Positions 34,828-44,837 of a stretch of DNA of 64,000 bases are shown here, in pieces. The DNA is taken from NCBI GenBank assembly GCA_016869675.1, contig VGDP01000009.1, forward strand, positions 1 to 64,000. Reading direction: 5' to 3'. The position numbers were made by a program, and so were the translations under genes. A model generated the notes under the pieces. The model did no database searches and had not been told where the DNA came from. It saw only the letters and a program-made list of their open reading frames with translations. Within the stretch, counting starts at the first letter, position 1. Each line of letters opens with the position of its first letter. Origin of the DNA: Alphaproteobacteria bacterium (lineage in GTDB: Bacteria > Pseudomonadota > Alphaproteobacteria > SP197).

Positions 34828-35790
34828 ATGACCACGCTGCTGACCGGAGCGACCGGGTTTGTCGGTTCGGCGGTACCGCGGTGTCTGGTTGCGGCGGGGC
34901 ACGACGTGCGCGTGCTGGCGCGCGCGGGCGCCGACCGCCGGCACCTGGAGGGCGTGCCGTGCGCGGTCGTCACCGGCGATCTTGCCGATCCGGCCTCGCT
35001 GGTGCGCGCGGCGCGCGGCTGCACGGCGTTGTTCGACGTCGCCGCCGACTACCGACTGTGGGTGCGCGACGTGGCCGCCATGGAGCGCGTCAACGTCGAT
35101 GGCTCGGTCGCGCTGTTGCGCGCCGCCGCTGAGGCCAGCGTGCGTCGCGTCACGTACACAAGCACGGTGGCGACCCTGCGCCTGGACCACGAAGGAGCGG
35201 CGGTCGACGAGACGGCGAACGCCTAACTCCACGAGATGATCGGGCCGTACAAGCACTCGAAGCACCGCGCGGCGAACGCGGTGGCGGCGCGCGCGACCGG
35301 GCTGGACGTCGTCACCGTGATGCCGACCGCGCCGATCGGGCCGCGCGACGCCAAGCCGACGCCCACGGGACGCATGGTCGTCGAGGCCGCGCGCGGCCGC
35401 ATGCCCTCATTTGTCGAGACCGGGCTCAACGTCGTGCATGCGGACGACGTGGCCGAGGGGCACTTGCGGGCGCACCAGCAAGGGCGGCGGGGCGAGACCT
35501 ACATCCTGGGCGGCGAGAACCTGCGGCTGAGCGCCATTCTCGCGGCGATCGCAGCGCTGGTCGGGCGCCGCGCGCCGCGCGTGAACCTGCCCCACTGGTC
35601 GGTACTGCCGGCCGCGGCCGTCGCCGAAGGCCTGGCGCATTGCCGTCTGCTGCGCGAGCCGCTCATCACCTTCGATGGGCTGCGCATGGCGCGCCACATG
35701 ATGTACTTTTCGAGCGACAAGGCAGGCCGCGAGCTGGGCTATGCCCCCCCCCGCCCGGCCTCCGACGCGCTGGCCGACGCCGTCGCCTGA
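34828..35790 (+). pseudogene. hpnA: HpnA-type hopanoid-associated sugar epimerase, interrupted by TAA
   Basis: NAD-dependent epimerase/dehydratase of the extended SDR family, of the HpnA group found with hopanoid genes. The Rossmann start is TTLLTGATGFVGSAVPRCL. Group-specific segments are FDVAADYRLWVRDVAAMERV, TYTSTVATLRLD, then TAA at 35224-35226 (codon 133), then LHEMIGPYKHSKHRAANAV with the catalytic YxxxK, PTAPIGPRDAKPTPTGRMVV, and ETYILGGENLRLSAILA. The frame is the same on both sides and total length (320) is normal. One base change explains the loss. The stop lies before the catalytic Tyr, so an unsuppressed product is inactive; reinitiation at ATG 35236 would lack the NAD-binding half. 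Confidence 0.85.
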
Positions 35791-35884
35791 TACCGCCAAG
35801 CCGGATACCTGGGCTGACACCGGCCCCTTGCGCCGCGCCACTGTCCGCCGTATGAGGCCGGACCCACACCCCGGGAGCACGGCG

Positions 35885-37087
35885 ATGGACAACCTCAAGA
35901 CGATCCGCAACGGGACCAAGTCCCATCCCGTGTTCTCGGCCGCCGAGATGAACGGCCGGCTCGCGCACCTGCGCGCCCACATGGCCGCCGATGGCATCCA
36001 GGCGTGCCTGTTCACCTCGTACCACAACGTCAACTACTACGATCATTTCCTCTACTGCTCGTTCGGCCGGCCCTACGGCCTGGTGGTGACCGAACGCGAC
36101 GTGACTGCGATCGTCGCCAACATCGACTACGGCCAGCCATGGCGGCGCGGCTTCGGCGCGACGCTGACCTACACCGATTGGCAGCGCGACAACTTCTTCC
36201 GCGCGGTGCAGCGGCTGATCCCGGCCAAGGGCAAGGTCGGCATCGAGACCGACCACATCAGCGTCGAGAACCGCGACAAGCTGGCCGCGGCGCTGGCCGG
36301 TGCGGCGCTCGTAGACGTGGCCAAGCCGTGCATGCGCCTGCGCATGGTCAAGTCGGACGAGGAGATCGCGCTGATCCGCCAGGGTGCGCGCATCGCCGAC
36401 CTGGGCGGCGCCGCGTGCGTCGAGGCGATCGGCGACGGCGTGCCCGAGCACGAGGTCGCCCTGCACGCCACCCAGGCCATGGTGCGCGAGATCGCGCGCA
36501 CCTACCCGGACACCGACATCATGGACACCTGGACCTGGTTCCAGTCGGGCATCAACACCGACGGGGCGCACAACCCGGTGACCACGCGGCGCATCCGCAA
36601 GGGCGACATCCTAAGCCTGAACTGCTTCCCCATGATCGCCGGCTACTACACGGCGCTGGAGCGCACGCTGTTTTTCGACCATTGCGACGCGGCGTCGCGC
36701 CGCTATTGGGAGATCAACGTCGAGTTGCACCGGCACGGCCTGGAGCTGATCCGGCCGGGCGCGCGCTGCAAGGACATCGCGCTCGCGTTGAACGAGATCT
36801 ACCGTGCCCACGGGGTGCTGGACGCGCGTACCTTCGGCTACGGCCATTCGTTCGGCACGCTCAGCCACTATTACGGTCGCGAGGCCGGCCTGGAGCTGCG
36901 CGAGGACATCGAGACCGTGATCGAGCCGAACATGGTCGTGTCCATGGAGCCGATGATCACCATCCCCAACGGCCAGCCAGGCGCCGGCGGCTATCGCGAG
37001 CACGACATCCTGGTGGTGACCAAGGCGGGCGCCGACAACATCACCGGTTTCCCCTTCGGGCCCGAGCGCAACATCGTCACAAAGTAG
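35885..37087 (+). CDS. Creatinase (creatine amidinohydrolase)
   Basis: Hydrolyses creatine to sarcosine and urea. The 400-residue sequence follows Pseudomonas creatinase closely throughout: LFTSYHNVNYYDHFLYCSFG, IDYGQPWRRGF, YTDWQRDNFFRAVQ, DTWTWFQSGINTDGAHNPVT (catalytic His 229, equivalent to His 232), NCFPMIAGYYTALERTLFF (Glu 259), RTFGYGHSFGTLSHYYGREA and VVSMEPMITIPNG. It has the pita-bread (M24) fold but lacks the metal ligands of aminopeptidases. I chose ATG 35885, after GGGAGCACGGCG. A sarcosine/dimethylglycine dehydrogenase-like gene lies 1.9 kb downstream, past a convergent antiporter. Confidence 0.96.
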   Translation: MDNLKTIRNGTKSHPVFSAAEMNGRLAHLRAHMAADGIQACLFTSYHNVNYYDHFLYCSFGRPYGLVVTERDVTAIVANIDYGQPWRRGFGATLTYTDWQRDNFFRAVQRLIPAKGKVGIETDHISVENRDKLAAALAGAALVDVAKPCMRLRMVKSDEEIALIRQGARIADLGGAACVEAIGDGVPEHEVALHATQAMVREIARTYPDTDIMDTWTWFQSGINTDGAHNPVTTRRIRKGDILSLNCFPMIAGYYTALERTLFFDHCDAASRRYWEINVELHRHGLELIRPGARCKDIALALNEIYRAHGVLDARTFGYGHSFGTLSHYYGREAGLELREDIETVIEPNMVVSMEPMITIPNGQPGAGGYREHDILVVTKAGADNITGFPFGPERNIVTK

Positions 37088-38864: not shown

Positions 38865-38992
38865 CCGGCCTGGATCCTCTGAGCCGGTGGGCAGTCCCGC
38901 CACTATAGCCGAGCCGCGCGACCCTGCCCACGGCCGCGCTCGATTCCCGCGACGGCTTGCTCTAGAAGGGCCGGAACCGGGGGCGAGGGGCC

Positions 38993-41900
38993 GTGACCGA
39001 CAGGCAGGCGAGGATCGTCATCATCGGCGGCGGCGCCGTCGGCTGCTCGGTCGCCTACCATCTGGCGCGCCGGGGCGAGCGTGACGTGCTGCTGGTCGAG
39101 AAGGCGGCGCTGACCCACGGCGCCACGTGGCACGCCGCGGGCCTGGTCGGCCAATTGCGCGGCAAGCGCAACCTGACGCGCCTGATGGAGGACAGCGTCG
39201 CCGTGTTCGACCGGCTCGAGGCCGAGACCGGCCAGGCGATCGACTAACGCAAGGTGGGCTCGCTGCGCTTGGCCTCGAGCCCCGAACGTTGGAGCGAGAT
39301 CTGCCGCTCGCTCAGCCAGGCGCGCTCGTTCGGCTTCGAGGCGCACGAGGTCGCGGTCGCCGAGGCTAAGCGCCTGTTCCCCTATCTGGCGACCGAGGGC
39401 ATCGTCGGCGCGGTGTTCATCCCGTCCGACGGCTACGTCGATCCCAATGGCCTGACCCAGGCCTATGCGAAGGGCGCGCGCGCCGGCGGCGTGCGCATCC
39501 TGGAAGGCGTCGCCGTGACGGGCGCCGAGACGGCGGGGCGGCGCGTCACGGCGCTGGTCACCGACGACGGCACGATCCGCTGCGAGACGGTCGTCGTGTG
39601 CGCCGGTCTGTGGGCGCGCAAGGTCGGCGCGCTGCTGGGCGTCGCGCTGGCCGCCGGCGTGGTGCAGCACCAGTACCTGGTGACCGGCAAGAGCTTGAAG
39701 GTGCCCTCGACGATCCCGACCCTGCGCGACCCGGACCACAACGTCTATCTGAAGCCCGACGTGGGCGGCTTCGCCTTCGGCGGCTGGGAGCACGACGCGC
39801 CACCGTGCTTCGATCAGGACCCGCCGTTCGCCTTCGGCCGCACCCTGTTCGACAGCGATTTCGACCGCTTCGCCGCGATCGCCCAGGGGGCGGCCACGCG
39901 GGTCCCGGCCATCGACGAGGCCGGCGTGCAGACCCTGATCAACGGGCCCATACCGGTGTCCGCCGACGGCGAGCCGATCATGGGTCTGGCGCCCGAGCGC
40001 GACAACGTGTTCGTGGCGTGCGGCTTCACCGCCGGCATCGCCGCGTCGGGCGGCGCCGGGCTGGCCATGGCCAACTGGATCGTCGATGGCGATCCGGGCA
40101 TGGACCTGTGGTCGTTCGACGCGCGCCGCTTCGGCCCGCTGCACGCCGGGCGATGGTTCCTGGAGGCGCGCGCGGTCGAGGCGTACGGCCGCTACTACGC
40201 GATCCACTGGCCCAACGAGGAAATGGAGAGCGCGCGCGACGTGCGCCTGAGCCCGCTGCACGGCGCGCTGGCGGCGCACGGCGCCGTGTGCGGCGCCAAG
40301 TTCGGCTGGGAGCGGCCCAACTGGTTCGCCGCGCGCGATCCATCCGGCGCCGTCGAGGCCCACGACCGCCCGTCGTTTGAGGGCCGGCCCAACTGGTTCG
40401 ACGCCGTGGGCGCCGAACACCGCGCGGTGCGCGAGCGCGTCGCCCTGATCGACCAGACCTCGTTCACCAAGTTCGAGGTGGCGGGGCCCGGCGCGCTCGG
40501 CTTCCTGCAGCGCGTGGCGGCCAACGACGTGGCCGCGACCGACGGCCGCAACGTCGTCTACACCCAGTTGTGCAACGAGCGCGGCGGCATCGAGGCCGAC
40601 CTGACGGTCATGCGGCTGGAGGAAGACCGCTTCATGGTCGTGACCGGCGCGGGCTTCGGCGTACGCGACCGCGCATGGCTGACGGCCCACATGCCGCGCG
40701 ACGGCACGGTGAGTCTGCGCGACGTCAGCGGCGCTCTTGCCGTGATCAACCTGTGCGGGCCGCGCTCGCGCGAGGTGCTGGCACGCGTGGCCGAGGAACC
40801 GGTCGACGATGCGGCGCTGCCGTTCCGCGCGGCGCGCACGCTGACGCTGGGTTCGGCGCGCGCCCTCGCCGCCCGTATCGGCTATGTGGGCGAGCGCGGC
40901 TACGAGATCTACGTGCCCGTCGAGGTTGCGCTGCACCTGCACGACGCCTTGTGCGCCGCCGGTGCGCCCTTCGGCATCGCCGACGCGGGCTATCGCGCGA
41001 TCGAGAGCCTGCGCCTGGAGAAGGGCTACCTCTACTGGAGCGCCGAGCTGAGCCCCGACGTGAACCCCTACGAGGCAGGACTCGGCTTCTGCGTCGCGCT
41101 GGACAAGGGCGAGTTCGTGGGCCGTGCGGCGCTCGCACGCCTGCGCGCCGAAGGGCCACGCCGCGTGCTGTGCTCGTTCACGCTGGAGCCCGACGCGCCG
41201 GTGATCGGGGGCGAGGCGATCGTGCGAGACGGACGCGTGCTGGGCACCACCACAAGCGCGGGCTACGGCTACACCGTCGGCCGGGCCATTGCGTTCGGCT
41301 ACCTGCCGCGCGAGGAGGTGCGCCACGCTGACTTCGAGATCGAGGCCTACGGCCGGCGCGTCGCGGTCACGCGGCTCGGCAGCCTGACCAACCGGGTCTA
41401 CCGGCTGGAGGCCGACGGCGCGCGCTGGTGCCTGCGCGTGCCGGGCAAGGGCACCGAGGCCTACATCGACCGCAAGGTCGAGGTGGTCAACGCCCGCGCC
41501 GCCGCCACGGCGGGTGTCAGCCCCGAGGTGCTGTTCTTCGACGAGTCCGACGGCCTGATGGTGACGCGCTTCATCGACGGCATCACTACCATGACACCGG
41601 CCACGTTCCCGACCACGCCGGGGGCGCCGACACGCGCGGGTCGGGCGTTCCGCGACCTGCATCGGTCGGGCGTGGCGTTCGCGTTCCGCTTCGAGCTGTT
41701 CAGCATAATCGATGGCTATCTCGCGCACCTGGCCAAGCTCGGCGCGCGTCTGCCCGACGGCTATCACGACGTGGTGCGCGAGGCCGAGGGCGTGCGCGCC
41801 GCGCTGGCCGCCCATCCGGTGCCGCTGGCACCCTGCCATTGCGATCCGCTGTGCGAGAACTTCCTGGACGACGGGGCGCGCATGTGGATCGTCGACTGGG

Positions 41901-42214
41901 AGTATTCCGGCATGAACCATCCCATGTGGGATCTGGGCGACCTGTCGGTCGAGGCCGGCTTCGGTCCGGCCCAGGACCAGGAGATGCTGCGCGCCTATTT
42001 CGGCACTACGCCCAGCGCGTTCGATACCGGGTGCGTGGTCATCTACAAGGCGATGTGCGACCTGTTGTGGACCCTGTGGGGTCTGATCCAGGACGCCAAC
42101 AAGAACCCGGTCGACGATTTCTGGGCCTACGCCAACAACCGCTTCGTGCGCTGCAAGGCGCTGATGGCGGACCCGGTGTTCGCCGGCCACGTGGCCGCCG
42201 TGCGTGCGGGATAG
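38993..42214 (+). pseudogene. Fused FAD/GcvT dehydrogenase (dimethylglycine/sarcosine type) and choline-kinase-like protein, with early TAA
   Basis: A single frame of 1073 codons apart from one TAA at codon 85 (39245-39247). Residues 1-370 are a DAO-type FAD domain (IIGGGAVGCSVAYHLARRG; His in THGATWHAAGLVGQLR, the covalent-FAD position of the DMGDH family). About 375-430 is the FAO_M linker, about 435-690 the GcvT folate-binding domain (AVINLCGPRSREVLARV, IGYVGERGYEIYVPVE), and about 700-793 the GcvT C-terminal barrel. At about 794 (near 41373) it passes directly into a choline/ethanolamine-kinase-like phosphotransferase lacking its first 25 or so residues (SLTNRVYRLEADGARWCLRV, LAPCHCDPLCENFLDD, WIVDWEYSGMNHPMWDLGDL). 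Relatives have Tyr or Trp where the TAA is. It looks like two neighbours fused by deletion, then hit by a stop. Confidence 0.85.
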
Positions 42215-42245
42215 GCCACTCCCAAGGTTGCCGGGATTCCCCCCC

Positions 42246-42351
42246 GTCATCCCTGGGCCGGCCGAAGGCCGGAACCGGGGACCCAGGGACGACGGACCGG
42301 GCGGTTGCTCTGGATTCCCGGTTCGCCGCTCGCGCGGCGCCCGGGAATGAC
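42246..42351. repeat. Dispersed palindromic repeat, copy C (inverted)
   Basis: A 106-bp element in the opposite orientation to copies A and B: left arm GTCATCCCTGGGCCGGCCGA..., right arm ending CGGCGCCCGGGAATGAC at 42351; the reverse complement of this right arm matches the left arm of copy B. It again lies between converging genes. Confidence 0.9.
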
Positions 42352-42403
42352 AGAGGAGCAAGGGTCCATTCCCCTGAGAAGGTGGCGCTCGATCCTCGCC
42401 CGG

Positions 42404-43575: not shown

Positions 43576-44837
43576 TCGTCAGGCAGCTTGTGGGGATGGT
43601 GTTCGGGCGGGGCGCGCGGATCCATCTCGGGTGCGCCGTAGGTGCCGGGGGGCAGCGGCACGGCCACGTAGTCACCCTGCTCGCGCGCTCTCTTGGCGCG
43701 GCGGATGGCCATGGGGATCAGCAGGAACAGCGCGACCGCGCCGAGCCCCGCCGCCATGAACCAGAACAGGCCGCGGTCGCCCAGACCGTTCATGACTAGG
43801 CCGGCGACCATCGGGCCGGCGACCGCGCCGACGCCCCACGCGAACAGCAGGCCGGCGCTGGCGGCGACGAAGTCCTAGCGCTCGATGTAGTCGTTGGTCT
43901 GGCCGACGCCCGGCGCGTAGAGCGGCGCGGTGACGCCTTCGAGCACGAACAGGAGCCCGAGCAACAGCAGGAACGGCGGCGCGTCGAGCAGCGCGACCGT
44001 GGCGGCCAACTTGGCGCCGCCGCCCGAGCACGCGACCATCAGCGGCCGGCGACCCAGGTGATCCGCCACCATGCCCACCGGGTACTGGATGAGCAGCCCG
44101 GCGACGGTCGAGGCGCTTTAGATGATCGCGAGCTGCGAGGTGCTGAAACCGCCGCGTTCCGTGTAGGCCGACAACAGACCGTTGAACGCCGTCATGACCA
44201 GGCCGGTGCCGAAGCACGTCACGACGCCCGAGGGTGAAATGGAGAGCAAGCGGATGATACCGAAGTGCGCGCGATAGCCGATCTCGGGGTTGCCGACGCG
44301 GGTCAGGGCCATGGGCACCAGCGCCGTGGTCAGCAGCATGGCCACCAGGCCGAACAGGATGGTGACGCCGAGCCGTTCCTCGAAGTGCAGCGCCAGCGGG
44401 CTGACGTTGGTGGCGGCCAACGACACCACTATGTACAGCGCGAAGATCCGCCCGCGCGTGTCCTCCGTCGCCTTGTCGTTCAGCCAGCTCTCGACGATGA
44501 CGAACAGGCCGGCGAAGGCGTAACCCAGCACCGCGCGCAGGCCGATCCACGAATAGGGATCGGTGAGGATCAGATGGGCGAACGCGGTGTTGGCGGCCAG
44601 CGCAGCGAACATCGCGAAGGCGCGGATGTGCCCAGCGCGGTCGATGATGCGGTGGCCGGTGAGCGTGCCGGCCAGGAACCCGACGAAGTAGGCCGAGGTG
44701 ACCAGGCCGATCACCTCGTTCGGCACATCGCGCCGGGCCATCTCCAGCGAGGCCAAGGGCGACAGGATGCCGAGACCGCCTTCCATGAAGACGACCGCCA
44801 GCAGCACCTGGACGACCGGCCGCACCGCCGACAGCAT
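43572..44837 (-). pseudogene. MFS transporter (YcaD-like), two in-frame stops
   Basis: A 422-codon major-facilitator gene in one frame. It starts MLSAVRPVVQVLLAVVFMEG and has the motif HRIIDRAGHIRAFAMFAALA. It stops at TAA codon 240 (44118-44120) in QLAII-stop-SASTVAGLL, continues with IQYPVGMVADHLGRRPLMVA (the inter-domain loop), stops again at TAG codon 321 (43875-43877) in NDYIER-stop-DFVAASAGLL, then runs on to LPDE. The flanking sequence is otherwise intact and well conserved, so both lesions look recent. A truncated 239-residue product would have only the first half. The YcaD-like group exports or imports unknown small solutes. Confidence 0.85.

Follow-up and report, generated by a model that had tools for sequence, protein, structure and literature searches.

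The long reading frame at positions 38993-42214 of the window, by which we mean the whole 64,000-nucleotide stretch of an alphaproteobacterial genome analyzed here, is probably what remains of a gene pair, conserved in Alphaproteobacteria, that decayed recently and was fused by deletion. How would such a frame arise? In the ancestral pair, a gene for an FAD-GcvT oxidative demethylase would have preceded one for a choline-kinase-like phosphotransferase. A ~120-165-bp deletion would have taken the end of the first gene with its stop codon, the spacer, and the beginning of the second, the frame being kept by luck, and would have left the kinase with neither a start site of its own nor its N-terminal helix. 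A separate lesion, Trp to TAA at codon 85, would halt the first gene's translation at 84 residues and would therefore leave the flavin site and the remainder of the oxidoreductase no longer on one chain. In-frame fusion through deletion between neighboring genes is a known process: Mycobacterium tuberculosis carries deletion-born in-frame chimeric genes (ppe38-71 and others), some with a detectable chimeric protein (PMC7671302). The window resembles the ppe38-71-type chimeras in that a deletion between neighbors appears to have left one frame, and differs from them in that their protein product has been seen (PMC7671302), whereas the frame described here has a nonsense codon upstream.

Translation of this forward-strand frame is open up to its TAG stop at 42212-42214 apart from one TAA. 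The 5' piece (38993-39244) comprises 84 codons from a GTG start and holds a Rossmann motif, IVIIGGGAVG, and a flavin-site motif, ATWHAAGL; it matches positions 1-82 of 353 of the Pfam domain DAO. The in-frame TAA follows as codon 85 (39245-39247), and behind it the FAD-GcvT, dimethylglycine dehydrogenase-like protein continues (39248-41371) with the C-terminal part of the FAD domain, FAO_M, GCV_T, and a clipped GCV_T_C. The frame thus holds no complete DAO domain on one chain, as GxGxxG falls within codons 1-84 and the TAA separates it from the remainder. The junction, ..YGRR/VAVTRLGS.. (41354-41380; DFEIEAYGRRVAVTRLGSLTNRVYRLE in the window), is the deletion point, its position not resolvable at base level, and beyond it runs a choline/ethanolamine-kinase-like domain of the 3DXQ family with a clipped N-terminus (41372-42211).

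Six bases 3' of the TAA, a GTG at 39254 opens a frame of 986 residues (39254-42214) and is a possible restart. Pfam places on this frame DAO (88-353 of 353), FAO_M (1-56 of 56; 66.5 bits), GCV_T (1-254 of 255; 258.4 bits), and GCV_T_C (1-72 of 80, residues 637-706; 56.6 bits), the last three in the expected order and each above the Pfam cut-off. With zero gap after GCV_T_C there follows APH (4-231 of 239, residues 707-918), and Choline_kinase matches at 6-206 of 300. The sequence-only reading had proposed this arrangement, with FAD, FAO_M, GcvT, and GcvT-C domains running without a linker into a choline-kinase-like domain, and the Pfam assignments agree with it. Codon-position G+C is coding-like on either side of the TAA, and likewise on either side of the junction. 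An opposite-strand ORF (38903-42361) gave values of 0.92/0.52/0.71, a profile unlike that of the genome's genes, in which the third position is highest, and was rejected as a high-G+C shadow ORF. The AlphaFold2 model of the 986-residue frame, with an overall pLDDT of 57.7 and a shallow alignment of the first half, is usable for the kinase part only, where block pLDDT is mostly 70-95, that is, of high confidence. A G+C-rich palindromic stretch (CCGGCCGAAGGCCGGAACCGGG...GGATTCCCGGTTCGCCGC) lies 3' of the fused gene at 42230-42400 and resembles dispersed REP-like elements.

Residues 2-706 of the 39254 frame align with 128-836 of 4PAB and 88-814 of 1PJ5. With the dimethylglycine dehydrogenase and N,N-dimethylglycine oxidase structures (4PAB, 4P9S, 5L46, 1PJ5) the window shares the order DAO, FAO_M, GCV_T, GCV_T_C; it departs from them in its stop after the Rossmann part of the FAD domain, its clipped tail, and its fused kinase. 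Residues 704-986 align with 23-301 of 3DXQ (E 5e-121), a Mesorhizobium loti choline/ethanolamine kinase family protein (NP_106042.1) whose biochemistry was not worked out at the time of PMC4364537. P-loop, Brenner, and choline-kinase motifs are common to the window, 3DXQ, and LicA (4R77). Compared with 3DXQ, however, the window lacks residues 1-22, has Ser in place of a P-loop Gly, and has no start of its own.

How are the two genes arranged in relatives? A scan with one genome per species returned hundreds of kinase relatives, from which 80 loci were retained, and whole-genome searches added more. An FAD-GcvT gene lies directly upstream of the kinase gene, on the same strand, in 59 loci (58 distinct, L032 and L081 being the same). 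Order and strand are those of the window, but the relatives always have two separate ORFs (58/58 distinct adjacent pairs), and rhizobial and roseobacter plasmids annotate the pair as two genes, an 'FAD-dependent oxidoreductase' and a 'phosphotransferase' or 'choline/ethanolamine kinase family protein'. The fusion occurs in none of the roughly 90 kinase loci compared, and the window's genome is the only one of 385 from the class to have kinase and GcvT protein in one frame of ~1000 residues. A 784-residue frame in genome G246, considered as a second fusion, was checked at its locus and is no fusion. The same fusion was found in no other lineage across the 80 loci, the 385 class genomes, and the annotated plasmid records listed, and literature searches for a published demethylase-kinase fusion gave nothing relevant. 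The search of relatives that the sequence-only reading had recommended, for adjacent genes or the same fusion, thus recovered the pair, always separate, and the fusion nowhere else.

Where the kinase start can be placed in relatives, it lies anywhere from a 4-base overlap with the GcvT stop to about 170 bases beyond it. The closest pairs (L087, L118, L077, L107, L090) are 63-65% identical to the window in the GcvT half and 65-70% in the kinase; over all relatives, identity reaches 65% and 71%, respectively, and the match of the window to both genes is not a matter of chance. Between the aligned points on either side of the junction, relatives mostly have about 120-165 bp and the window has 0, a net in-frame loss. 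The window is short of ~15-17 residues at the GcvT end, of the stop and spacer, and of the first ~28-33 residues of the kinase; the deletion across two neighbors that had been suggested would remove exactly these parts and is thus supported. The conserved C-terminal tail LYDPxxxRLK, kept in relatives with the pair as (x)RGPRCLYDPKxxRLKx before the stop (for example, GPRCLYDPSNARLKT and then the stop), is gone from the window, and GCV_T_C ends at 72 of 80, as expected from the earlier remark that the GcvT C-terminal barrel is short of its last residues. About 28-33 residues precede the common RLGGLTN in relatives (for example, MTNDDTARARAAIGTLPPFEGLDPARAS), close to the ~25 that had been estimated as lost. 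In the window, GcvT sequence stands in place of the kinase's own start and of the ~25-30 N-terminal residues before the P-loop. A BLAST match of the kinase running upstream to 41312 was read as chance extension across GcvT sequence.

At the column of codon 85, each of the 49 aligned relatives has Trp and the window has TAA, and TGG to TAA requires two base changes. The TAA is a disabling lesion, and two marks of a pseudogene, a disabling lesion at a conserved site and partial domain loss, are found here: the invariant Trp has become a stop, and both domain ends are gone. Could the stop be read through, by suppression or an altered code, to give a true bifunctional demethylase-kinase of full length? 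Although the frame is open bar the TAA and both activities belong to one conserved cluster in relatives, both fused ends are truncated, and we regard such an enzyme as extremely improbable. A change of genetic code or suppression was rejected as its basis, because TAA, TAG, and TGA at Trp, Tyr, and Gln positions are beyond any single reassignment and the anticodons of the 42 tRNAs found are all ordinary, with no suppressor among them. The earlier suspicion that the first half may no longer be made full length is supported by the Trp in relatives and the lack of a suppressor among these tRNAs. The companion claim of a new bifunctional enzyme should be dropped: the fusion is in no other examined genome, the stop isolates the FAD site, and nonsense-interrupted genes are many.

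In-frame stops indeed interrupt many genes of this genome, some of them hopanoid genes. We surveyed 462 kb of it (the window, L147, and L170-L189) against 396 kb from four related genomes. Same-frame coding after a coding end was detected in 26/388 cases here versus 3/205 in the related genomes; by an approximate sorting by eye, ~10 of the 26 look to be normal gene boundaries, where a start codon closely follows the stop, or shadow frames. The credible nonsense codons number about 16 in 462 kb, counting one extra stop in squalene-hopene cyclase (SHC) that the scan filter missed, versus about one in 396 kb. Frameshift-like switches show a milder excess (3.2 versus 1.3 per 100 kb).

The SHC gene (L147 1501-3489; G000 contig C14, about 62500-64489) holds three in-frame stops, TAG, TAA, and TGA, and no frameshift; read through, it scores 738.9 bits against TIGR01507 (cut-off 431). 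In this family, Tyr would be expected at the TAG and TAA and Trp at the TGA. The gene for an HpnA-like hopanoid-associated sugar epimerase, hpnA (34828-35790, forward strand), has an in-frame TAA at 35224-35226, again with no frameshift, and scores 414.7 bits against TIGR03466 (cut-off 367.65) when read through. Both sets of lesions look recent because the read-through scores exceed the NCBIfam cut-offs, and hopanoid synthesis looks, to judge from these genes, to have been lost in this genome. An NF002962-like MFS transporter gene (43672-44837, reverse strand) has an in-frame TAA at 44118 and a TAG at 43875, and TAG occupies Gln positions in two further genes of the genome. A nucleosidase-like gene adjoining SHC has a TAG at L147 3738. 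Multiple stops per gene (SHC, MFS) and stops within the hopanoid pathway point to relaxed selection over scattered base errors; the excess as a whole may reflect recent relaxed selection or assembly quality.

Alternatively, the stop, the deletion, or both may be an artefact of assembly, or may stem from a mixture of strains in a metagenome-assembled genome, in which case the cells themselves would carry two normal genes. The assembly consists of 97 contigs, and sequencing errors are documented as a source of interrupted genes (PMC1852416). We nevertheless consider an artefact unlikely, as TGG to TAA demands two changes in a single codon, a frame-keeping loss of 120-165 bp is atypical of base-calling error, and the stops are not scattered but fall together in a handful of functionally linked genes. 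The genome's eight further full-length FAD-GcvT paralogues contain no stop, and because the nearest paralogues reach just 48% identity, collapse of a repeat is improbable. Repeat-mediated misassembly was rejected on the same low identity and because no direct repeat is present around the junction within the locus.

Might the chimera still be a kinase, made by restart at GTG 39254 as a 986-residue protein with an inactive oxidoreductase half and an active kinase? Its product would lack the flavin site because the FAD motifs lie in the first 84 residues. The frame from 39254 to 42214 is open and was kept by the deletion, the pathway partner genes are retained, and the kinase part is predicted with high confidence; the detectable chimeric proteins of M. 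tuberculosis (PMC7671302) offer a precedent. Motif residues are also kept: P-loop GSLTN (its second Gly replaced), Brenner motif CHCDPLCEN, and choline-kinase motif DWEYSGMNHPMWD / DWEYSGMNHPMWDLGDLSVE. However, of the 55 kinase columns that do not vary among the other 25 non-redundant sequences, the window departs at three (G4S, within the P-loop, D183H, and R221C), while sequences of comparable divergence depart at 0-1. Moreover, the fusion is in no relative, the N-terminal helix is gone, no ribosome-binding site with good spacing was seen in the sequence ahead of GTG 39254, and many other genes of the genome are nonsense-interrupted. On balance a surviving kinase is quite unlikely. That a flavin-free, truncated GcvT-type module translated from GTG 39254 replaces the kinase N-terminal helix, as a scaffold or substrate source, strikes us as very improbable.

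Decay of the gene pair, the reading we prefer, has its own difficulties. The 3.2 kb hold a single nonsense codon, a single in-frame deletion, and zero frameshifts; the catalytic motifs of the kinase are kept; the frame is kept, which random deletions manage in one third of cases; and the genome retains, at other places, intact genes for the transporter, second kinase, second FAD-GcvT protein, HAD, and amidotransferase. The GcvT half departs at 3/125 invariant columns (T579S, L635R, L639I), which is in the ordinary range. Decay, if real, would be recent, because the overall divergence of both halves and their codon-position G+C are ordinary. The lesions, the two-gene layout in relatives, and the nonsense excess in the surveyed part of the genome are direct observations; that no functional product is left, and the order of the lesions, we infer. 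Automatic annotation would call a 986-residue 'fusion protein' here, and caution is warranted.

The intact version seen in relatives suggests that the pair belongs to a widespread cluster. A glycine-betaine-type permease gene, a second choline-kinase-like gene, and at least one FAD-GcvT gene occur together in 30/57 kinase loci >14 kb. In L032, L077, L087, L107, L118, and others, the cluster comprises a betaine-type ABC transporter, two FAD-GcvT demethylases, and two choline-kinase-like proteins. Literature searches found no published function for it; a role in quaternary amine uptake and demethylation via a phosphorylated intermediate is plausible. In the window's genome, all of the following are intact: at C15, the second kinase and the permease, the latter with its ATPase and OpuAC binding protein; at C3, an FAD-GcvT paralogue; and at C4, the HAD and amidotransferase genes. 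An HAD hydrolase and a class-I amidotransferase sometimes join the alphaproteobacterial cluster. Upstream of the fused frame, at 35741-37087 on the forward strand, lies a gene for an M24 protein of creatinase/prolidase type (Pfam Creatinase_N, Peptidase_M24); should this prove to be a creatinase, the sarcosine that it forms would be of the FAD-GcvT substrate type.
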